From contig JAENWK010000013.1 of NCBI GenBank assembly GCA_016650045.1, forward strand, positions 1 to 35,906: a DNA stretch of 35,906 nt, given 5' to 3'. The stretch is from Eubacteriaceae bacterium. Its GTDB lineage: Bacteria; Bacillota; Clostridia; Eubacteriales; Eubacteriaceae. Under the pieces are notes generated by a model. The model was not told the origin of the DNA. It ran no database searches and was given only the letters and a program-made list of their open reading frames with translations. The position numbers and the translations under genes are program-made. Positions 28,934 to 35,906 of the stretch are shown here, one piece after another. How positions within the stretch are numbered: the first letter of the stretch is position 1; every line of letters starts with the position of its first letter.

Positions 28934-28962
28934 GTAGGAGAATTTAAAAAAAAGGATTGCAA

Positions 28963-29826
28963 ATGGAAGAGCTATTATTATATATACAATCAAGAATAAC
29001 CATTGGAAGTGTCATTGAGGTTTTTATTATTACCTATATTGTCTATCGTGTATTGTTATGGATACGAGGTACCCAGGCAGAACAGGTATTTAAGGGTCTT
29101 ATGCTTTTATTATTCCTTGCACCACTCAGTGCGTGGTTAGGTTTTACGACATTAAATTTAATGATTACCAGCGTATTCACCTGGGCCTTTATTTTTATTG
29201 TGGTTGTGTTCCAACCTGAATTCCGGTCAGCCCTTGAGCAGTTAGGAAACAATCAACTTTTTAGGGATATACTAAAAAGACCCTCAATCGATTCTTTGGA
29301 AAAGGATGCGGAAGAGCTTATTGAAGCCGTTGGCAACTTGGCGAAAGAAGAAATTGGAGCCCTTATTGTTCTCGAAAAGCATACAGGGCTTAAGAATATT
29401 GTCAACACCGGTATCCAATTAGATGCTGATATTAGTAATGAACTCATTGAGAATATTTTTACAACCAACCGTCCATTACATGATGGTGCAGTGATTCTTA
29501 AATTTGGAACCGGACGAATCCGTGCGGCTGGATGTTTGCTGCCTTTATCGGATAATCGGGATCTGGGCAGTGCATTAGGAACACGACATCGAGCCGGGCT
29601 TGGAATGACAGAAAAATCAGATGCCATTGTCATCATAGTGTCTGAAGAAACAGGTCAGGTTTCATATGCTGACAATGGAACGTTGTTTCAAGATGTGAAT
29701 CCAGAGGTGCTTAAACAAATGATTTTGGATAATTTCACAGTAAAAGATGATGGAAAAAATAATACCTGGCTACATAAATTTTGGGAGAAATTAGATGAAA
29801 ATAAAAAAGAAAGTACCGGTGCATGA
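28963..29826 (+). CDS. cdaA: Diadenylate cyclase CdaA
   Basis: A 287-residue membrane-bound enzyme that makes c-di-AMP from two ATP. Three hydrophobic helices occupy about residues 15-33, 40-58 and 62-85; the DAC domain follows with the catalytic DGA (174-176) in HDGAVI and RHR (208-210) in GTRHRAGLG. The ATG at 28963 is 6 bases from AAAGGA; a TTG two codons upstream is less well placed. It overlaps cdaR by 32 bases. In most Firmicutes cdaA-cdaR is followed by glmM, which is absent here. Confidence 0.96.
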   Translation: MEELLLYIQSRITIGSVIEVFIITYIVYRVLLWIRGTQAEQVFKGLMLLLFLAPLSAWLGFTTLNLMITSVFTWAFIFIVVVFQPEFRSALEQLGNNQLFRDILKRPSIDSLEKDAEELIEAVGNLAKEEIGALIVLEKHTGLKNIVNTGIQLDADISNELIENIFTTNRPLHDGAVILKFGTGRIRAAGCLLPLSDNRDLGSALGTRHRAGLGMTEKSDAIVIIVSEETGQVSYADNGTLFQDVNPEVLKQMILDNFTVKDDGKNNTWLHKFWEKLDENKKESTGA

Positions 29827-31006
29827 AAAGGTCATACGCATATTTCTGGCCTTGGGTATCGCTGTATTACTATGGTTCATGGTGAATGGCAATTCGAATG
29901 TCATTGTGAACCAGGATTTTAACAGTATTCCCATTACTTTAACCAATGAGGATGGGTTGGCTGCTAAAAAGCTCGTTTTAGCCGAAGATAAAAGTTATTA
30001 TCTTAATCTTCGAATAAAGGGAACCGATAAAAATCTCAGGAAAATTAATACCAAGGAAATCTCAGCAGAGGTTAATTTAGGCGATATCAATACCAAGGGA
30101 ACCTACGACTTGGAAATTGCAGTGAAGGGACTACCTAATTCAGTCATTATAGATAGTGTGAATCCGACATCCTTACAGATTGTGGTGGATAATATTATTA
30201 AAGAAAATCTTGAAGTTGGTGTAGTGGTAGAAGGTCAACCGGCAAATGATGCGGTCGTGATTTCTGCAAAATCTTTAGAAAAGGTTGAAGTCCAGGGCCC
30301 TGAAGAATCCATTGCAAGAATTGCTAAAACCACTGGAACAGCTAATGTTAGTAACCTGAAGTCAGATACCATTGAACATTTACAGGTTATGGCCTATGAT
30401 TCATCAGGAAACCGGATTAATGATGTTGAATTTTCACCAAGCGTAGTCACAGCAGAGATTATTCTCGGAAAAATGAAAGAAGTCGGTGTGATTACTGCAA
30501 CCTCTGGACAAACCGCCAATGGTTATGTCGTCTCACAAGTTTTGGTTGAGCCCTCAAAAGTCATGATTGGTGCAAAACAGGAAGTCCTTGATCAGATTGA
30601 TGCCATTACTATGAACGCCATTGACGTATCGGGGCAAGCCAAAACATTTTCAAAAGATGTTAGTTTGACTCCGCCAGAAGGCTGCTATCTTCAGAATGGC
30701 AATGATCAGGTAAAAGTGACCGTTAACATTGAAAACACTATAGAAAGAAGCTTTACTTTGGATAAAATAAGTGTTAAAAATCTGGGTGCTGGTTTAGTTG
30801 TTTCAAAAATGAAAGATTCCAAGGTGTTATTGAAATTGGAAGGGGCAAGCAGTGTTTTGAATGCTCTGAATCCTGCTCAAACTGAGGCCTATGTTGATTG
30901 TGCCAATTTGGGACCGGGTGAATACGAATTACCAATTCAGTCTAATTTAACCCCGGCATTGGTGAAGTCCATCACCTCGGCAAAAACCATTGTTACCATT
31001 GAGTGA
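29795..31006 (+). CDS. cdaR: CdaA regulator CdaR (YbbR-domain protein)
   Basis: A 403-residue protein with one N-terminal membrane anchor (IRIFLALGIAVLLWFMVNG near residues 14-32) and an extracytoplasmic part composed of several YbbR repeats of about 80-90 residues, marked by recurring patterns such as SVNPTSLQIVVDN near 124, VEVQGPEESIARIAKT near 167, VLVEPSKVMIGAKQEVLDQI near 248 and a final repeat ending near 400. CdaR binds CdaA at the membrane and modulates c-di-AMP output. Its ATG lies inside the end of cdaA, after GGGAG. Confidence 0.93.
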   Translation: MKIKKKVPVHEKVIRIFLALGIAVLLWFMVNGNSNVIVNQDFNSIPITLTNEDGLAAKKLVLAEDKSYYLNLRIKGTDKNLRKINTKEISAEVNLGDINTKGTYDLEIAVKGLPNSVIIDSVNPTSLQIVVDNIIKENLEVGVVVEGQPANDAVVISAKSLEKVEVQGPEESIARIAKTTGTANVSNLKSDTIEHLQVMAYDSSGNRINDVEFSPSVVTAEIILGKMKEVGVITATSGQTANGYVVSQVLVEPSKVMIGAKQEVLDQIDAITMNAIDVSGQAKTFSKDVSLTPPEGCYLQNGNDQVKVTVNIENTIERSFTLDKISVKNLGAGLVVSKMKDSKVLLKLEGASSVLNALNPAQTEAYVDCANLGPGEYELPIQSNLTPALVKSITSAKTIVTIE

Positions 31007-31152: not shown

Positions 31153-32241
31153 GTGAAAAGAGTGTATAATTTTTCAGCAGGACCATCTGCCTTACCTATT
31201 GAGGTATTACAAAAGGCAGCTGATGAAATGGTATCATACGGAGATTCAGGAATGTCTGTTATGGAGATGAGTCATCGTTCGTCTTATTTTATTGATATTC
31301 TTCATGAGGCAAAAAGTTTATTTAAAGAACTGATGAATGTACCAGATAACTACGAAATCCTGTTTTTACAGGGTGGGGCCTCTACCCAATTTTCAATGGT
31401 TCCATTAAATCTCTTAGCTAAGAGTAATAAATGTGATTTTATGATTACCGGAAGCTGGGCAAAAAAAGCATATCAAGAATCGGCTCGTTATGGAGAAGCA
31501 AAGGTTATTGCGTCTTCTGAAGATAAAACCTTTTCCTATATTCCAAAAGTGGATTCCAAGGATTTCACACCGGATGCTGATTTTTTTCATATTTGCGTCA
31601 ACAATACCATTTTCGGAACACGCTTTAAACCAGAAAATTTACCAGAAACTGGTAATGTACCTTTGGTTGGAGATATGTCTTCCAATATATTATCCGAAGT
31701 ATATGATGTATCAAAATTTGGTTTGATTTATGCCGGGGCCCAAAAGAACATGGGACCAGCAGGTGTAACGGCTGTGATTATTCGTAAAGACTTATTAGGA
31801 CATGCCAAAGATTTCACACCAACCATGCTCAATTATAAAATCCATGCCGATAACGATTCAAGCTATAATACACCACCATGCTTTGCAATTTATGTCTGTA
31901 AACTAGTTTATGAATGGGTTAAGGCCAATGGCGGTGTTGCGGGTATGGAAAAAGCCAACAAAGAAAAAGCTCAATTGCTTTATGACTATATTGATAACAG
32001 CAAGCTTTATAAAGGAACCGTTGTTCCCGAAGATCGTTCATTAATGAATGTGACTTTTATTACAGGTTCAGATGAATTAGATGCGCTCTTTGTTAAAGAA
32101 AGCAAAAAAGTTGGTTTGGAAAACTTAAAGGGTCATCGAAGTGTTGGGGGAATGCGTGCCAGTATTTACAATGCCATGCCACTGGCAGGTGTTGAAACCC
32201 TTATTAACTTCATGAAAAAATTTGAAAGTGAAAATGCATAG
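31153..32241 (+). CDS. serC: Phosphoserine aminotransferase
   Basis: A 362-residue class V PLP enzyme that makes O-phosphoserine from 3-phosphohydroxypyruvate and glutamate, the second step of serine synthesis. It begins KRVYNFSAGPSALPIEVL, and the PLP lysine is in YAGAQKNMGPAGVT near residue 198. The C-terminal GHRSVGGMRASIYNAMPL segment completes the active site. Length equals the family norm (about 360). TAAGGAGG lies about 10 bases before the ATG start (GTGAAA at the same codon is GTG; the codon at 31153 is GTG). serA follows within 30 bases. Confidence 0.96.
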   Translation: MKRVYNFSAGPSALPIEVLQKAADEMVSYGDSGMSVMEMSHRSSYFIDILHEAKSLFKELMNVPDNYEILFLQGGASTQFSMVPLNLLAKSNKCDFMITGSWAKKAYQESARYGEAKVIASSEDKTFSYIPKVDSKDFTPDADFFHICVNNTIFGTRFKPENLPETGNVPLVGDMSSNILSEVYDVSKFGLIYAGAQKNMGPAGVTAVIIRKDLLGHAKDFTPTMLNYKIHADNDSSYNTPPCFAIYVCKLVYEWVKANGGVAGMEKANKEKAQLLYDYIDNSKLYKGTVVPEDRSLMNVTFITGSDELDALFVKESKKVGLENLKGHRSVGGMRASIYNAMPLAGVETLINFMKKFESENA

Positions 32242-32270
32242 ACATTTTCCATGTGAAAGGAAATATTACA

Positions 32271-33440
32271 TTGAATTATAAAGTACAAACTCTCAATAAT
32301 ATATCTAAAAAGGGCCTGAAATTATTAGGCGAAAATTATACTGTTCTGGATCAGCCTGAGAACTCTGATGCTATTTTATTAAGAAGTTATAAAATGCATG
32401 ATATGGATATTCCAGCCAGTGTTAAATTTGTTGGTCGTGCCGGAGCCGGTGTGAACAATATTCCACTGGATAAATGTTCAAAACAAGGAATTGTTGTCTG
32501 TAATTCTCCAGGAGCCAATGCCAATGCGGTAAAAGAATTGGTCATTGCAGGAATGCTCATTTCTTCACGTAAAGTCGTTGATGGCATCGCTTGGGCAAAA
32601 ACTCTGGAAGATAAAGGTGATGATGTTCCCGCCTTAGTTGAAAAAGGCAAAAGCGCTTTTGGCGGACCAGAGCTTTACGGCAAAAAAATGGGAGTTATTG
32701 GTTTAGGTGCCATTGGTGTTCTTGTTGCAAATATGGCCATCGATTTTGGCATGAAGGTTTATGGTTTTGATCCTTTTATTTCCATTGACAACGCCTGGGG
32801 CTTGAGCAGAAAAGTAAGACGCGCAGTGAGTAAAGAAGAAATTTTTAAAAATTGCGATTATATTTCACTGCATATTCCTTTTATGGATGAAACCAAAGAC
32901 TATGTCAATGCCGGTTTATTAAAAGAAACAAAGGAAGGCTTACGTCTTCTGAACTTTGCAAGAGGCGGACTTGTGAATTATGAAGCATTAGAGAATGCTA
33001 TAGAAGAAGGCATTGTGGCAACATATATCACTGATTTTCCAAATGAACGTCTTCTTAAAATGAAGAATGTTATTAACATTCCTCATTTAGGTGCATCTAC
33101 ACCAGAAAGCGAAGAAAACTGTGCTGAAATGGCTATTCATTCCCTAAAAGAATACTTGGAAAATGGGAATATTATTAACTCTGTTAATTATCCGGATTGC
33201 AATATGGGCGTTTGTGAGAGTATTAATCGTCTTACCGTTAATCATGCAAATGTTACTAATATGCTGGGTCAGATTACAAAGATTTTGGCTGATAACAACA
33301 TTAATATATCAGTTATGACCAATAAAAATCGCGGATCATGGGCTTATACTATGATGGATGTTGACAGTAATGTTGGCGAAGAAGTAAAAATAGCCCTGAA
33401 AAACATTGAAGGTGTTACCCGGGTTCGTATTATTAAATAA
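32271..33440 (+). CDS. serA: D-3-phosphoglycerate dehydrogenase
   Basis: The likely start is TTG 32271, 8 bases after AAAGGAAA, giving 389 residues; GTG 32253 would add six residues but overlaps that site. It oxidises 3-phosphoglycerate in the first step of serine synthesis. The NAD-binding motif is GLGAIGVLVA near residue 144; the catalytic Arg, Glu and His are in NFARGG, DFPNER and IPHLGAS. The last 70 residues (HANVTNMLGQITKILADNNINI) form a short ACT regulatory domain. This is the compact ACT form, about 390 residues, common in Clostridia and Bacteroidetes. Confidence 0.92.
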   Translation: MNYKVQTLNNISKKGLKLLGENYTVLDQPENSDAILLRSYKMHDMDIPASVKFVGRAGAGVNNIPLDKCSKQGIVVCNSPGANANAVKELVIAGMLISSRKVVDGIAWAKTLEDKGDDVPALVEKGKSAFGGPELYGKKMGVIGLGAIGVLVANMAIDFGMKVYGFDPFISIDNAWGLSRKVRRAVSKEEIFKNCDYISLHIPFMDETKDYVNAGLLKETKEGLRLLNFARGGLVNYEALENAIEEGIVATYITDFPNERLLKMKNVINIPHLGASTPESEENCAEMAIHSLKEYLENGNIINSVNYPDCNMGVCESINRLTVNHANVTNMLGQITKILADNNINISVMTNKNRGSWAYTMMDVDSNVGEEVKIALKNIEGVTRVRIIK

Positions 33441-33513
33441 ACTAACACTATAAAAGAAGTGGCTGTTAAAAAAATCTGACTAAGTGTCTGTTATTGCTGT
33501 TATCATTATCATT

Positions 33514-33599
33514 CCTGAGTTCCCACACCCTTTGGGTGTGGGAACTCAGGGTCCACCCATTGGTATTTTGCAACAGGGCACACTTGATTTTGCAACAGG
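33514..33599 (+). repeat. 17-bp perfect inverted repeat and adjacent 22-bp-period tandem repeat
   Basis: CCTGAGTTCCCACACCC (33514-33530) and GGGTGTGGGAACTCAGG (33534-33550) are perfect 17-bp arms around TTT. No T run follows. Immediately after, ATTTTGCAACAGG occurs at 33565-33577 and 33587-33599, with a shared CAC-TT continuation. Both lie in the 190-base gap between serA and the DUF1015 gene. Confidence 0.85.
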
Positions 33600-33630
33600 C
33601 ACTTCTTTATTTAAAAATTTGGAGGAAAAA

Positions 33631-34875
33631 ATGTCAACAATTAAACCTTTTAAAGCTGTTCGGCCCTTTCCCGAAAAAGCAGCAGATGTTGCCGCACTAC
33701 CCTATGATGTTTACAATCGAGCAGAAGCCAATGCAGCAGTTCGAGGAAAGCTTGATTCTTTTTTACGGGTAGATCGCCCCGAAACAACCTTGGATGATCG
33801 AATGAAAATGGATGACCCCCTAGTTTATGAAACAGCTAGAAAAAATTTAGAAAAGCTTTTCTACCGGAATGTCATAACCCAGGACACCCAGGATTGCTTT
33901 TACATTTATGAATTGGTAATGGATGGCAGAAGCCAGGTTGGTTTAGTGGTTTGTACCTCCATTGATGAATATGTTGATAACACCATCAAAAAACATGAAC
34001 TCACCCGGGCAGATAAAGAAGAAGATCGGATTAAGCATGTGGATGCCACTAATGCCAATACAGGGCCTATTTTTCTGACTTATCGTGGACAGGTCCCTAT
34101 TAATACCCTTGTGGATACCTGGCGAGAAGCCCATACCCCGGTGTATGATTTTGTATCGGAAGAGGGGATTACCCATCGGGCCTGGGTTGTTGATGATGAG
34201 GCTGTAATCAGTGGTTTAGTCGAAAATTTTAAAGGTGTAAAGAATCTGTACATCGCTGATGGACACCACCGTTCTGCCTCTGCTGTAAAGGTAGGCCTTA
34301 TGCGCCGAGAAGCAAACCCTGACTATACAGGAAAAGAAGAATTCAATTATTTTCTTTCAGTATTATTCCCAGATGAACAGCTCCAGATAATGGATTATAA
34401 CCGTGTGGTGAAAGATCTCAATGGTTTAAGGGTTGAAGAATTTTTAGAAAAGCTATCTGAAAAATTTGACATTGAAGAAAAAGGGTCAGAACCGGTAAAA
34501 CCACCTCAAAAAGGGTCTTTTGGTCTCTATGTTGAAGGAAAATGGTATTTACTCACAGTCAAGGAAGGGGTTTATGATCCTGATAATCTTGTGGAGTCAT
34601 TGGATGTAGCCATTCTCCAGGATAATGTACTGATTCCCATTTTAGGTATTGGGGATATTCGTACTGACAAACGTATCGATTTTGTTGGTGGTATACGTGG
34701 TTTAAAAGAGCTGGAACGTCGTGCCAACGAAGATATGGCATTGGCATTTTCCATGTATCCAACCTCCATTGAAGAACTCATGAACATCGCCGATGCCGAT
34801 TTACTTATGCCGCCAAAATCCACTTGGTTTGAACCAAAGTTAAGAAGTGGATTATTTATACATAAACTTAGATGA
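33631..34875 (+). CDS. DUF1015 family protein, serine-cluster associated
   Basis: The ATG at 33631, 6 bases after TTTGGAGGAAA, gives 414 residues. Longer in-frame starts back to 33484 run through the inverted repeat and were rejected. Family landmarks: KPFKAVRPFPEKAADVAALP (5-24), a KHELTRADKEEDR segment near 124-136 and YIADGHHRSASAVK near 207-220. D210-G-H-H-R214 resembles the ligand motif of ParB/sulfiredoxin-fold proteins, which include serine kinases SerK and SbnI. DUF1015 genes often travel with serA and serC; the function is unestablished. A phosphoserine-related role is inference. Confidence 0.88.
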   Translation: MSTIKPFKAVRPFPEKAADVAALPYDVYNRAEANAAVRGKLDSFLRVDRPETTLDDRMKMDDPLVYETARKNLEKLFYRNVITQDTQDCFYIYELVMDGRSQVGLVVCTSIDEYVDNTIKKHELTRADKEEDRIKHVDATNANTGPIFLTYRGQVPINTLVDTWREAHTPVYDFVSEEGITHRAWVVDDEAVISGLVENFKGVKNLYIADGHHRSASAVKVGLMRREANPDYTGKEEFNYFLSVLFPDEQLQIMDYNRVVKDLNGLRVEEFLEKLSEKFDIEEKGSEPVKPPQKGSFGLYVEGKWYLLTVKEGVYDPDNLVESLDVAILQDNVLIPILGIGDIRTDKRIDFVGGIRGLKELERRANEDMALAFSMYPTSIEELMNIADADLLMPPKSTWFEPKLRSGLFIHKLR

Positions 34876-35115
34876 AAATCATAAACATAAAAAAACTTGC
34901 ATCTTAATTTATGATGTGATATCCATTACAACATTCAGTGAGTTAAAAGATTGGGTTTACTCAAATCTCATAACAAACTGCAAAGAAAAACGAATACAAC
35001 AAAGTTATCGTACTGATGCCATGAGGGTTTGTCCCCAGTGGAAAGGCGAGAGAATCATGTGAATTTAACCTAAATACATTGTGGTGAGCAATGGGTTCGG
35101 GCTTTAACGTGTTTT
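34876..35115 (+). other. Gene-free stretch before the hydrogenase genes, candidate leader RNA
   Basis: Together with the terminator this leaves 314 bases without a credible gene. Small hairpins are visible: CCA/TGG with inner GGG/CCC (35019-35041), and CATTG (35077-35081) with CAATG (35089-35093). A weak promoter may lie at its left end (TTGCAT 34897-34902, 17-base gap, then TGaTATCCA at 34917-34925). I do not recognise a known riboswitch consensus. Overlapping short frames on both strands have no ribosome site or family resemblance. Confidence 0.45.
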
Positions 35116-35145
35116 CCCTGTACCATTGGTACAGGGATTTTTTTT
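35116..35145 (+). terminator. Strong terminator 45 bases before the hydrogenase regulator gene
   Basis: CCCTGTACC (35116-35124) and GGTACAGGG (35128-35136) form a perfect 9-bp stem with a 3-base loop, then A and eight T residues. Between it and the next ribosome site there is no room for an obvious promoter, so it may be a regulated attenuator as well as the end of the serine operon. Confidence 0.92.
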
Positions 35146-35189
35146 GCTTGTTTAAAGAACAAAAAAATTCAAAAAAGGGAGGGCAAGAA

Positions 35190-35471
35190 ATGGAAAAAAG
35201 AATAGGACTCATAGGCATTGTGGTTGAGAATGAAGAGGCTGTGGAAAAATTAAACAATATTTTACACGATTATGGCAAGTATATCGTGGGACGGATGGGA
35301 ATTCCATACCGTGAAAGAAATATTTCTGTGATTAGTGTGGTCATTGATGCGCCAACGGATGTAATCAGTTCCCTTGCAGGAAAATTAGGAATGATTACCG
35401 GGATCAGTATTAAAACCGTGTATTCCAAACTTCCGAAATTTTCAGAAAACCTGGAAGAAGCCAGTGAATAA
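35190..35471 (+). CDS. TM1266-type iron-only hydrogenase system regulator
   Basis: The ATG at 35190 follows GGGAGGG by 7 bases and gives 93 residues. An in-frame extension to 35091 would run through the terminator and was rejected. The protein has an ACT/ferredoxin-like pattern: KRIGLIGIVVENEEAVEKLN at the start, GRMGIPYRERNISVISVVID near 34-53 and GKLGMITGISIKTVYSK near 64-80. Such small proteins are annotated as putative regulators of the [FeFe]-hydrogenase system because they sit beside its maturation genes; mechanism unknown. The end overlaps hydE by 8 bases. Confidence 0.88.
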   Translation: MEKRIGLIGIVVENEEAVEKLNNILHDYGKYIVGRMGIPYRERNISVISVVIDAPTDVISSLAGKLGMITGISIKTVYSKLPKFSENLEEASE

Positions 35472-35906
35472 ACTTGTTGAAAAGCTTGCCCGGGAACAAA
35501 CCCTTGAGGCAAAGGAGATTCTGTGGCTTCTGGAAAATAATACGGTTGAACTGAGGCAGGATCTCGCTCAAAAAGCCAGTGAGGTTGCCAAAAACACCTT
35601 TGATAATGGGATCTATACACGAGGACTCATTGAATTTAGTAATTATTGTAAAAATGATTGCTATTATTGTGGGATTCGAAAAAGTAATGATCAGGTTCAT
35701 CGGTATCGCCTTACAGAAGACCAGATCTTTAACTGTTGTAAAACTGGTTATGCTTTAGGATTTCGAACATTTGTCCTTCAGGGAGGAGAAGATCCTTACT
35801 TTGATGACGATCGAGTGGTTGCCATTATCCAGGAAATTAAGAAAAATTTTGCTGATTGTGCCATCACCTTGTCCATGGGGGAAAAATCAAAAAAAAGTTA
35901 TGAACG
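35464..35906 (+). CDS. hydE: [FeFe]-hydrogenase maturation radical SAM protein HydE (partial, 3' end missing)
   Basis: The frame opens at GTG 35464, inside the end of the regulator gene after GGAAGAAG, and is still open at the window edge with about 147 codons seen of the usual roughly 350. The radical SAM cluster motif CxxxCxxC is C62, C66, C69 (YCKNDCYYCGIR), followed by GYALGFRTFVLQGGEDPYF near residues 91-109, typical of HydE in the biotin-synthase-like branch. HydE helps build the organometallic H-cluster together with HydG and HydF. BioB was considered, but the start pattern and TM1266 neighbour favour HydE. Confidence 0.9.
   Translation, partial: MNKLVEKLAREQTLEAKEILWLLENNTVELRQDLAQKASEVAKNTFDNGIYTRGLIEFSNYCKNDCYYCGIRKSNDQVHRYRLTEDQIFNCCKTGYALGFRTFVLQGGEDPYFDDDRVVAIIQEIKKNFADCAITLSMGEKSKKSYE

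Follow-up and report, generated by a model that had tools for sequence, protein, structure and literature searches.

The window, a stretch of DNA of 35,906 nt, encodes a protein of domain family DUF1015 as the third gene of a forward-strand cluster that runs serC, serA-like gene, DUF1015. We propose that this protein is probably the third enzyme of the phosphorylated serine pathway, both in this bacterium and in numerous SerB-less relatives, and that it converts phosphoserine to serine by means of a site of the SerK/SbnI type. The reading rests on the fold of a structural model, residue conservation, gene order, co-occurrence, SerB absence and the presence of T-boxes in some relatives; from these we infer the substrate, the direction of reaction, the acceptor and what the individual residues do. 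Hundreds of anaerobes, from the gut and elsewhere, owe their serine prototrophy to a step without a known gene. One named candidate family, with a fold, residues and simple tests, makes the question of this missing step directly answerable. If the proposal is true, serine auxotrophies predicted in models of microbial communities would be corrected.

The operon and its third gene

The original prediction placed serC and serA upstream of the DUF1015 gene. The serC assignment stands, as the product scores over the cut-off of its model (Table 1). Both domains of a 2-hydroxyacid dehydrogenase are present in the serA-like product. Its score on the PGDH model TIGR01327 is 235.6 bits, under the cut-off of 454, so the serA name rests on domains and context. 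The third gene encodes a DUF1015 protein with the DGHHR motif, as predicted. Its match to PF06245 lies far over the Pfam cut-off of 25.8 bits, spans model positions 1–324 of 325 and is the sole Pfam domain in the 414-aa protein. No NCBIfam model was matched by the protein, and neither a HAD domain nor TIGR00338 was identified in it. The longest open frame, from a GTG at 33484, would encode 463 aa, and the conserved protein begins at the ATG at 33631, with GGAGG immediately 5' of it. A single DUF1015 gene is present in the genome from which the window derives (98.9% complete). The terminator-like pattern that probably marks the operon end occurs at 5 sites in the window, compared with a mean of 3.4 in shuffled sequence.

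Table 1. Positions in the window of the serine operon, its features and selected residues of the DUF1015 protein.
Feature	Position	Strand	Evidence or comment
serC, phosphoserine aminotransferase	31153..32241	+	TIGR01364 515.2 bits, cut-off 443.6
serA-like gene for 3-phosphoglycerate dehydrogenase (395 aa)	32253..33440	+	PF02826 and PF00389; weak ACT domain
serA/DUF1015 spacer	33441..33630	+	perfect 17-bp hairpin 33514-33550 within imperfect inverted repeats 33453-33473 and 33588-33608
DUF1015 (subfamily A) gene, 414 aa	33631..34875	+	PF06245 386.6 bits; proposed serine-forming enzyme acting on phosphoserine
E123	33997..33999	+	sole Glu kept in every one of the three subfamilies; may correspond to SerK E30
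DGHHR, residues 210-214	34258..34272	+	identical in 81/81 aligned sequences; D210, G211 and H213 also kept in B and C
K396 in C-terminal MPPKSTWFEPKLRSG motif	34816..34818	+	kept in all three subfamilies
Terminator-like hairpin with T tail	35115..35137	+	pattern match alone; probable operon end

Within the spacer, the imperfect inverted repeats (21 nt each, spanning 33453–33608) that enclose the perfect hairpin have an RNA fold z of -7.35. The distance between serC and DUF1015 exceeds that in three congeneric genomes by 111–123 nt, so the spacer may represent a small palindromic insertion. The window's genome yielded no second copy, and the idea of a repeated element was rejected. Directly upstream of serC are genes for CdaA (diadenylate cyclase) and a YbbR protein (28957–31006). 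Downstream, at 35091–35904, are a gene for an iron-only hydrogenase regulator of the TM1266 family and the first part of a hydE-like gene, which is truncated at the window's end.

Predicted fold and conserved residues

An AlphaFold2 model was built from the window protein and 80 relatives (53–62% identical), which are the top 80 among 589 confirmed stretches and also supplied the loci compared below. The model has a pLDDT of 96.2 and a pTM of 0.91. In a Foldseek search of the PDB, all nine chains with E ≤ 1e-3 are SerK (5x0e, 5x0j, 5x0g, 5x0b, 5x0k and the Pyrococcus protein 1vk1) or SbnI (6nr6, 5uje and 5ujd), with a best E value of 4.1e-9; the next chain, at 0.057, is unrelated. VIA-align gave Z 13.1 (rmsd 4.7) over 216 of the 240 residues of SerK 5x0k and Z 12.3 for SbnI 5uje, after which scores fall to 4.8. 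The TM-scores are modest (0.34–0.36 by query length), as expected where 414 residues are laid on about 240. The predicted structure argues strongly that DUF1015 shares the free serine kinase fold of SerK and SbnI, a link that had been put forward from a motif. The match to SerK and SbnI speaks for a core like that of ParB and sulfiredoxin, but the matches to sulfiredoxin (3cyi, Z 4.8 over 99 residues) and to a ParB domain proper (5k5d, Z 3.3 over 81 residues) are weak. Pfam ParBc_2 gave weak matches in nine of the 81 members (best E 0.018) and none in the window protein.

Homology to SerK or SbnI at the sequence level was rejected. Searches of PDB sequences up to E 10 recovered neither protein, whether with phmmer (a single weak match, unrelated, at E 0.39) or by profile (weak histone matches, best E 0.21).

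SerK and SbnI have a DGH-type loop with a catalytic Asp. Three DUF1015 subfamilies can be distinguished by motif: A, which includes the window protein (ADGHHR ... MPPKSTWFEPKLRSG), B (ADGHHRYET ... MPQKSTYFYPKL) and C (GDGNHS ... LPRKTFSMGEA). Eleven residues are >95% conserved in each subfamily (counted over 89 A, 6 B and 9 C sequences, with one degenerate member left out): D26, E123, T125, R133, D210, G211, H213, A218, R258, P394 and K396. The original prediction had named E15 as a conserved N-terminal glutamate. We rejected E15 as the catalytic residue, as Glu occurs there in 31 of 81 relatives; the acidic residues conserved in the front part of the 81 type-A sequences (the window protein and its 80 relatives) are D26 and E32. 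We propose that E123 may instead be the counterpart of SerK E30, a residue mutated in PDB entries whose titles name E30A and E30Q, in complexes with phosphoserine and AMP.

One degenerate DUF1015 member (locus L147, 2729–4105) has TDGQTR in place of DGHHR. Its genome has a second DUF1015 match, and the degenerate protein is possibly a pseudoenzyme or a regulator.

Gene neighbourhood and the missing phosphatase

Neighbourhoods were parsed for 71 of the best 80 loci, with neighbour families named from one representative each. A serA-like gene occurs no more than five genes away in 36 loci, directly upstream and on the same strand in 27 of them, and none occurs within five genes in the other 35. 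serC is found within the same distance in 23 of the 71 loci and a second class-V aminotransferase in nine. Also present near DUF1015, upstream of serC, are genes for a TPP enzyme resembling acetolactate synthase (12/71) and for IlvD (8/71). For 293 genomes of the class, 150 DUF1015 and 150 serC matches were listed. Thirty of the 150 DUF1015 matches listed lie within 6 kb of serC_1. When only those of at least 370 bits are considered (n = 49), the two genes are within 6 kb in 22 of the 30 genomes having serC_1, among the matches listed. The second aminotransferase is on the same strand and less than 6 kb from DUF1015 in at least 24 of the 39 genomes that have it.

The other subfamilies show comparable arrangements. 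Subfamily B is convergent to serC-serA in L141, and matches with B-like scores are within 6 kb of serC in three further genomes of the same family. Subfamily C heads a dufC-serC-serA cluster in L139 and L140; in L033–L036 neither serC nor serA is near it in the stretches fetched. Because A (in the window), B (in L141) and C (in L139 and L140) each adjoin serC-serA, different subfamilies take the same place in different lineages. Two loci (L049 and L050) encode serC-serA without DUF1015. An apparent DUF1015 fusion, in a 604-aa open frame of one genome, was rejected, as serA overlaps it in another frame. In passages of PMC11316588, serC, a gene for an NAD(P)-binding protein and DUF1015 are side by side in two Porphyromonas species.

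The original prediction noted the lack of serB beside serC and serA, and this extends to the whole genome, where no protein scores over the SerB cut-off (TIGR00338). The same is true of all 41 close relatives and of all 293 genomes of the class (up to nine candidates scored per genome); SerB was found over cut-off in seven of 14 control genomes. ThrH (TIGR02137) is over cut-off in 30 of the 293 genomes (up to ten candidates scored per genome) and in none of the 14 controls, so that this model had no positive control among them.

As a marker of the pathway we used either serC_1 or the second aminotransferase, the latter only where it matched strongly (39 genomes counted out of 73 with a match); 209 of the 293 genomes have the marker. 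DUF1015 is encoded in 195 of these 209 and in 36 of the 84 without it (odds ratio 18.6, Fisher P 6e-20, kinship ignored). Of the 179 marker genomes with neither SerB nor ThrH, 168 have DUF1015. The 11 that lack it, and the 36 genomes that have it without a recognized aminotransferase, are points against a serine-forming role. Inclusion of the 34 weaker aminotransferase matches (27–35% identical), which were dropped from the main count, gives DUF1015 in 218 of 240 genomes versus 13 of 53, and in 191 of the 210 without ThrH. A clear serB in every genome with serA, serC and DUF1015 was thus not seen in the class (0/293). In two controls, Bacteroides ihuae and Methanosarcina acetivorans, DUF1015 occurs together with SerB, and DUF1015 is present in 27 of the 30 ThrH genomes; a general rule of DUF1015 instead of SerB was therefore rejected. 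In Thermotoga maritima DUF1015 is present and SerB is not over cut-off. One genome of the same family (locus L052) encodes a ThrH-type phosphatase (285 bits on NF010109) beside serC and DUF1015, a possible redundancy. A search of the open-licence literature for fitness data on the Bacteroides DUF1015 gene found none.

The gap itself has been described by others. Passages of PMC9026213 report 450 gut genomes, from diverse Firmicutes, that have SerA and SerC and none of four SerB types. Those of PMC7478625 describe Roseburia with serA and serC and apparently no serB, where only two of the named genomes or species lack an annotated putative ThrH; why genomes lacking serB retain serA and serC is there deemed unclear. 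Clostridium perfringens grows without serine and, in the relevant part of PMC7311316, has low-confidence SerB candidates only. Five Dehalobacter genomes are said in PMC4751268, in the part that deals with serine, to have no phosphoserine phosphatase gene, yet D. restrictus grows when serine is absent, and an "alternative or unrecognized" route is inferred there. For the gap in the gut genomes, Roseburia and Dehalobacter, DUF1015 is the best candidate. Gene order, co-occurrence, SerB absence and the serine T-boxes of some relatives all bear out the link to the pathway.

Reaction direction, alternatives and known systems

RNA families were scanned in 59 sources (L063 twice): the window, 38 of the best 80 loci and 20 further loci picked by hand. 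Four sources, not including the window, have an Rfam T-box at gathering score, which precedes aminotransferase-serA-DUF1015 in L066, L068 and L089 and serA-DUF1015 in L072. These T-boxes are 151–332 nt ahead of the first long gene, and the specifier triplet, read from alignments, is in all four UCC (serine) followed by a purine. A serine T-box switches genes on under serine shortage. Such an operon should rise when serine is short, and should therefore make serine rather than burn it; this is the main point against a kinase direction such as has been proposed for SerK of archaea. A second antiterminator-like motif, at 4659 in L068 (4275–4680), follows the first leader and may indicate a tandem T-box. 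An S10-Clostridia leader was identified in the window and, together with relatives that are mostly Clostridia, points to a clostridial host.

The kinase direction would make DUF1015 an enzyme of serine assimilation that phosphorylates serine and feeds phosphoserine back to 3-phosphoglycerate by way of SerC and SerA, the role put forward for SerK of Thermococcus and the Desulfurococcales. All solved relatives of the fold are kinases, and passages of PMC5120207 interpret as assimilation the dehydrogenase and aminotransferase genes found close to serK in three species of Desulfurococcales. Induction by glycine would also suit catabolism: PMC2211319 reports, in the part concerned, a single-aptamer glycine riboswitch ahead of COG4198 genes in Firmicutes, and PMC3766115 likewise places serC and serA of one Clostridium species under a glycine riboswitch. 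We rejected such an upstream element for these loci, as no glycine riboswitch was found in the 59 sources. Against assimilation are also the T-boxes, the biosynthetic setting indicated by the TPP-enzyme and IlvD genes, and the growth of D. restrictus without serine where no phosphatase gene was found (PMC4751268, serine passages). We consider assimilation unlikely.

Another phosphatase, a generic HAD or histidine phosphatase, could instead make serine, leaving DUF1015 to bind phosphoserine or a nucleotide as a regulator or scaffold of SerA and SerC. SbnI is reported to be a regulator besides being a kinase, which favors such a role. Proteins of the ParB fold can act as switches or scaffolds and not as enzymes, according to passages of PMC12704722. 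The window's genome encodes candidates for the phosphatase (ten PF12710 matches and one PF00300 protein), but the four PF12710 matches scanned resemble phosphoglycolate phosphatases or weak HAD-IB members, as judged from the matched stretches only. The matched stretch of the sole PF00300 protein fits CobC (100.7 bits, cut-off 162.9) better than PspA (65.3 bits, cut-off 350). The conservation in A, B and C of charged residues typical of phosphoryl-transfer sites also argues against a purely regulatory protein, and this account seems to us improbable.

That DUF1015 makes phosphoserine as a precursor of cysteine or a siderophore, in the manner of SbnI, is very unlikely despite the fold match to that protein (Z 12.3), as the adjoining serC and serA already provide phosphoserine and no siderophore gene was recognized among ten recurrent neighbour families scanned by one representative each.

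In the serine-forming reading that we prefer, SerA and SerC would supply phosphoserine and DUF1015 would convert it to serine. Phosphoserine and Mg2+ may be bound by E123, by the DGHHR loop (D210 and H213) and by three basic residues (R133, R258 and K396), which would then transfer the phosphoryl group. Reversal of SerK onto AMP is about 20 kJ/mol uphill, and water would therefore be the likeliest acceptor, making the protein a phosphatase built on the fold of a kinase. Bolder possibilities are inorganic phosphate and a bound nucleotide. SerK takes ADP and neither ATP nor pyrophosphate, according to passages of PMC5120207. A broader version of the proposal is that the three subfamilies together constitute a novel class of serine-forming enzymes, one outside the HAD proteins, that replaced SerB across Clostridia, with the phosphoryl group passed to Pi (giving pyrophosphate) or to a nucleotide rather than to water, saving part of the bond energy. 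We regard this extension as doubtful.

The window protein is a full-length member of DUF1015 (COG4198, PF06245), a family to which Pfam gives no function. In the open-licence literature, preprints excluded, we found no paper that links the family to phosphoserine dephosphorylation. "DU1015" (apparently DUF1015) is listed among fusion domains of the ParB-CTPase fold in passages of PMC12704722 that make no link to serine. A cysteine-based database places DUF1015 in the electron transport chain (PMC12828279, in the part concerned), an assignment not followed here.

Among characterized proteins, the closest in fold is SerK, the ADP-dependent free serine kinase of Thermococcus kodakarensis. The gene settings are also alike, given the dehydrogenase and aminotransferase genes near serK in some archaea (passages of PMC5120207, in which the SerK authors report no clear-cut bacterial homologues). 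The two differ in that SerK has about 240 aa, whereas the DUF1015 protein has 414 aa with some 88 extra N-terminal residues, and in that SerK acts on free serine as a kinase toward phosphoserine, whereas DUF1015 is proposed to form serine. The Staphylococcus free serine kinase SbnI has the same fold; it serves siderophore synthesis and works toward phosphoserine. SerB and ThrH, which are HAD proteins of an unrelated family, catalyze the same step as that proposed for DUF1015. PspA and SerB2, histidine phosphatases (PF00300) that are likewise unrelated, offer a further way to close this gap without a HAD protein (PMC9026213, in part).
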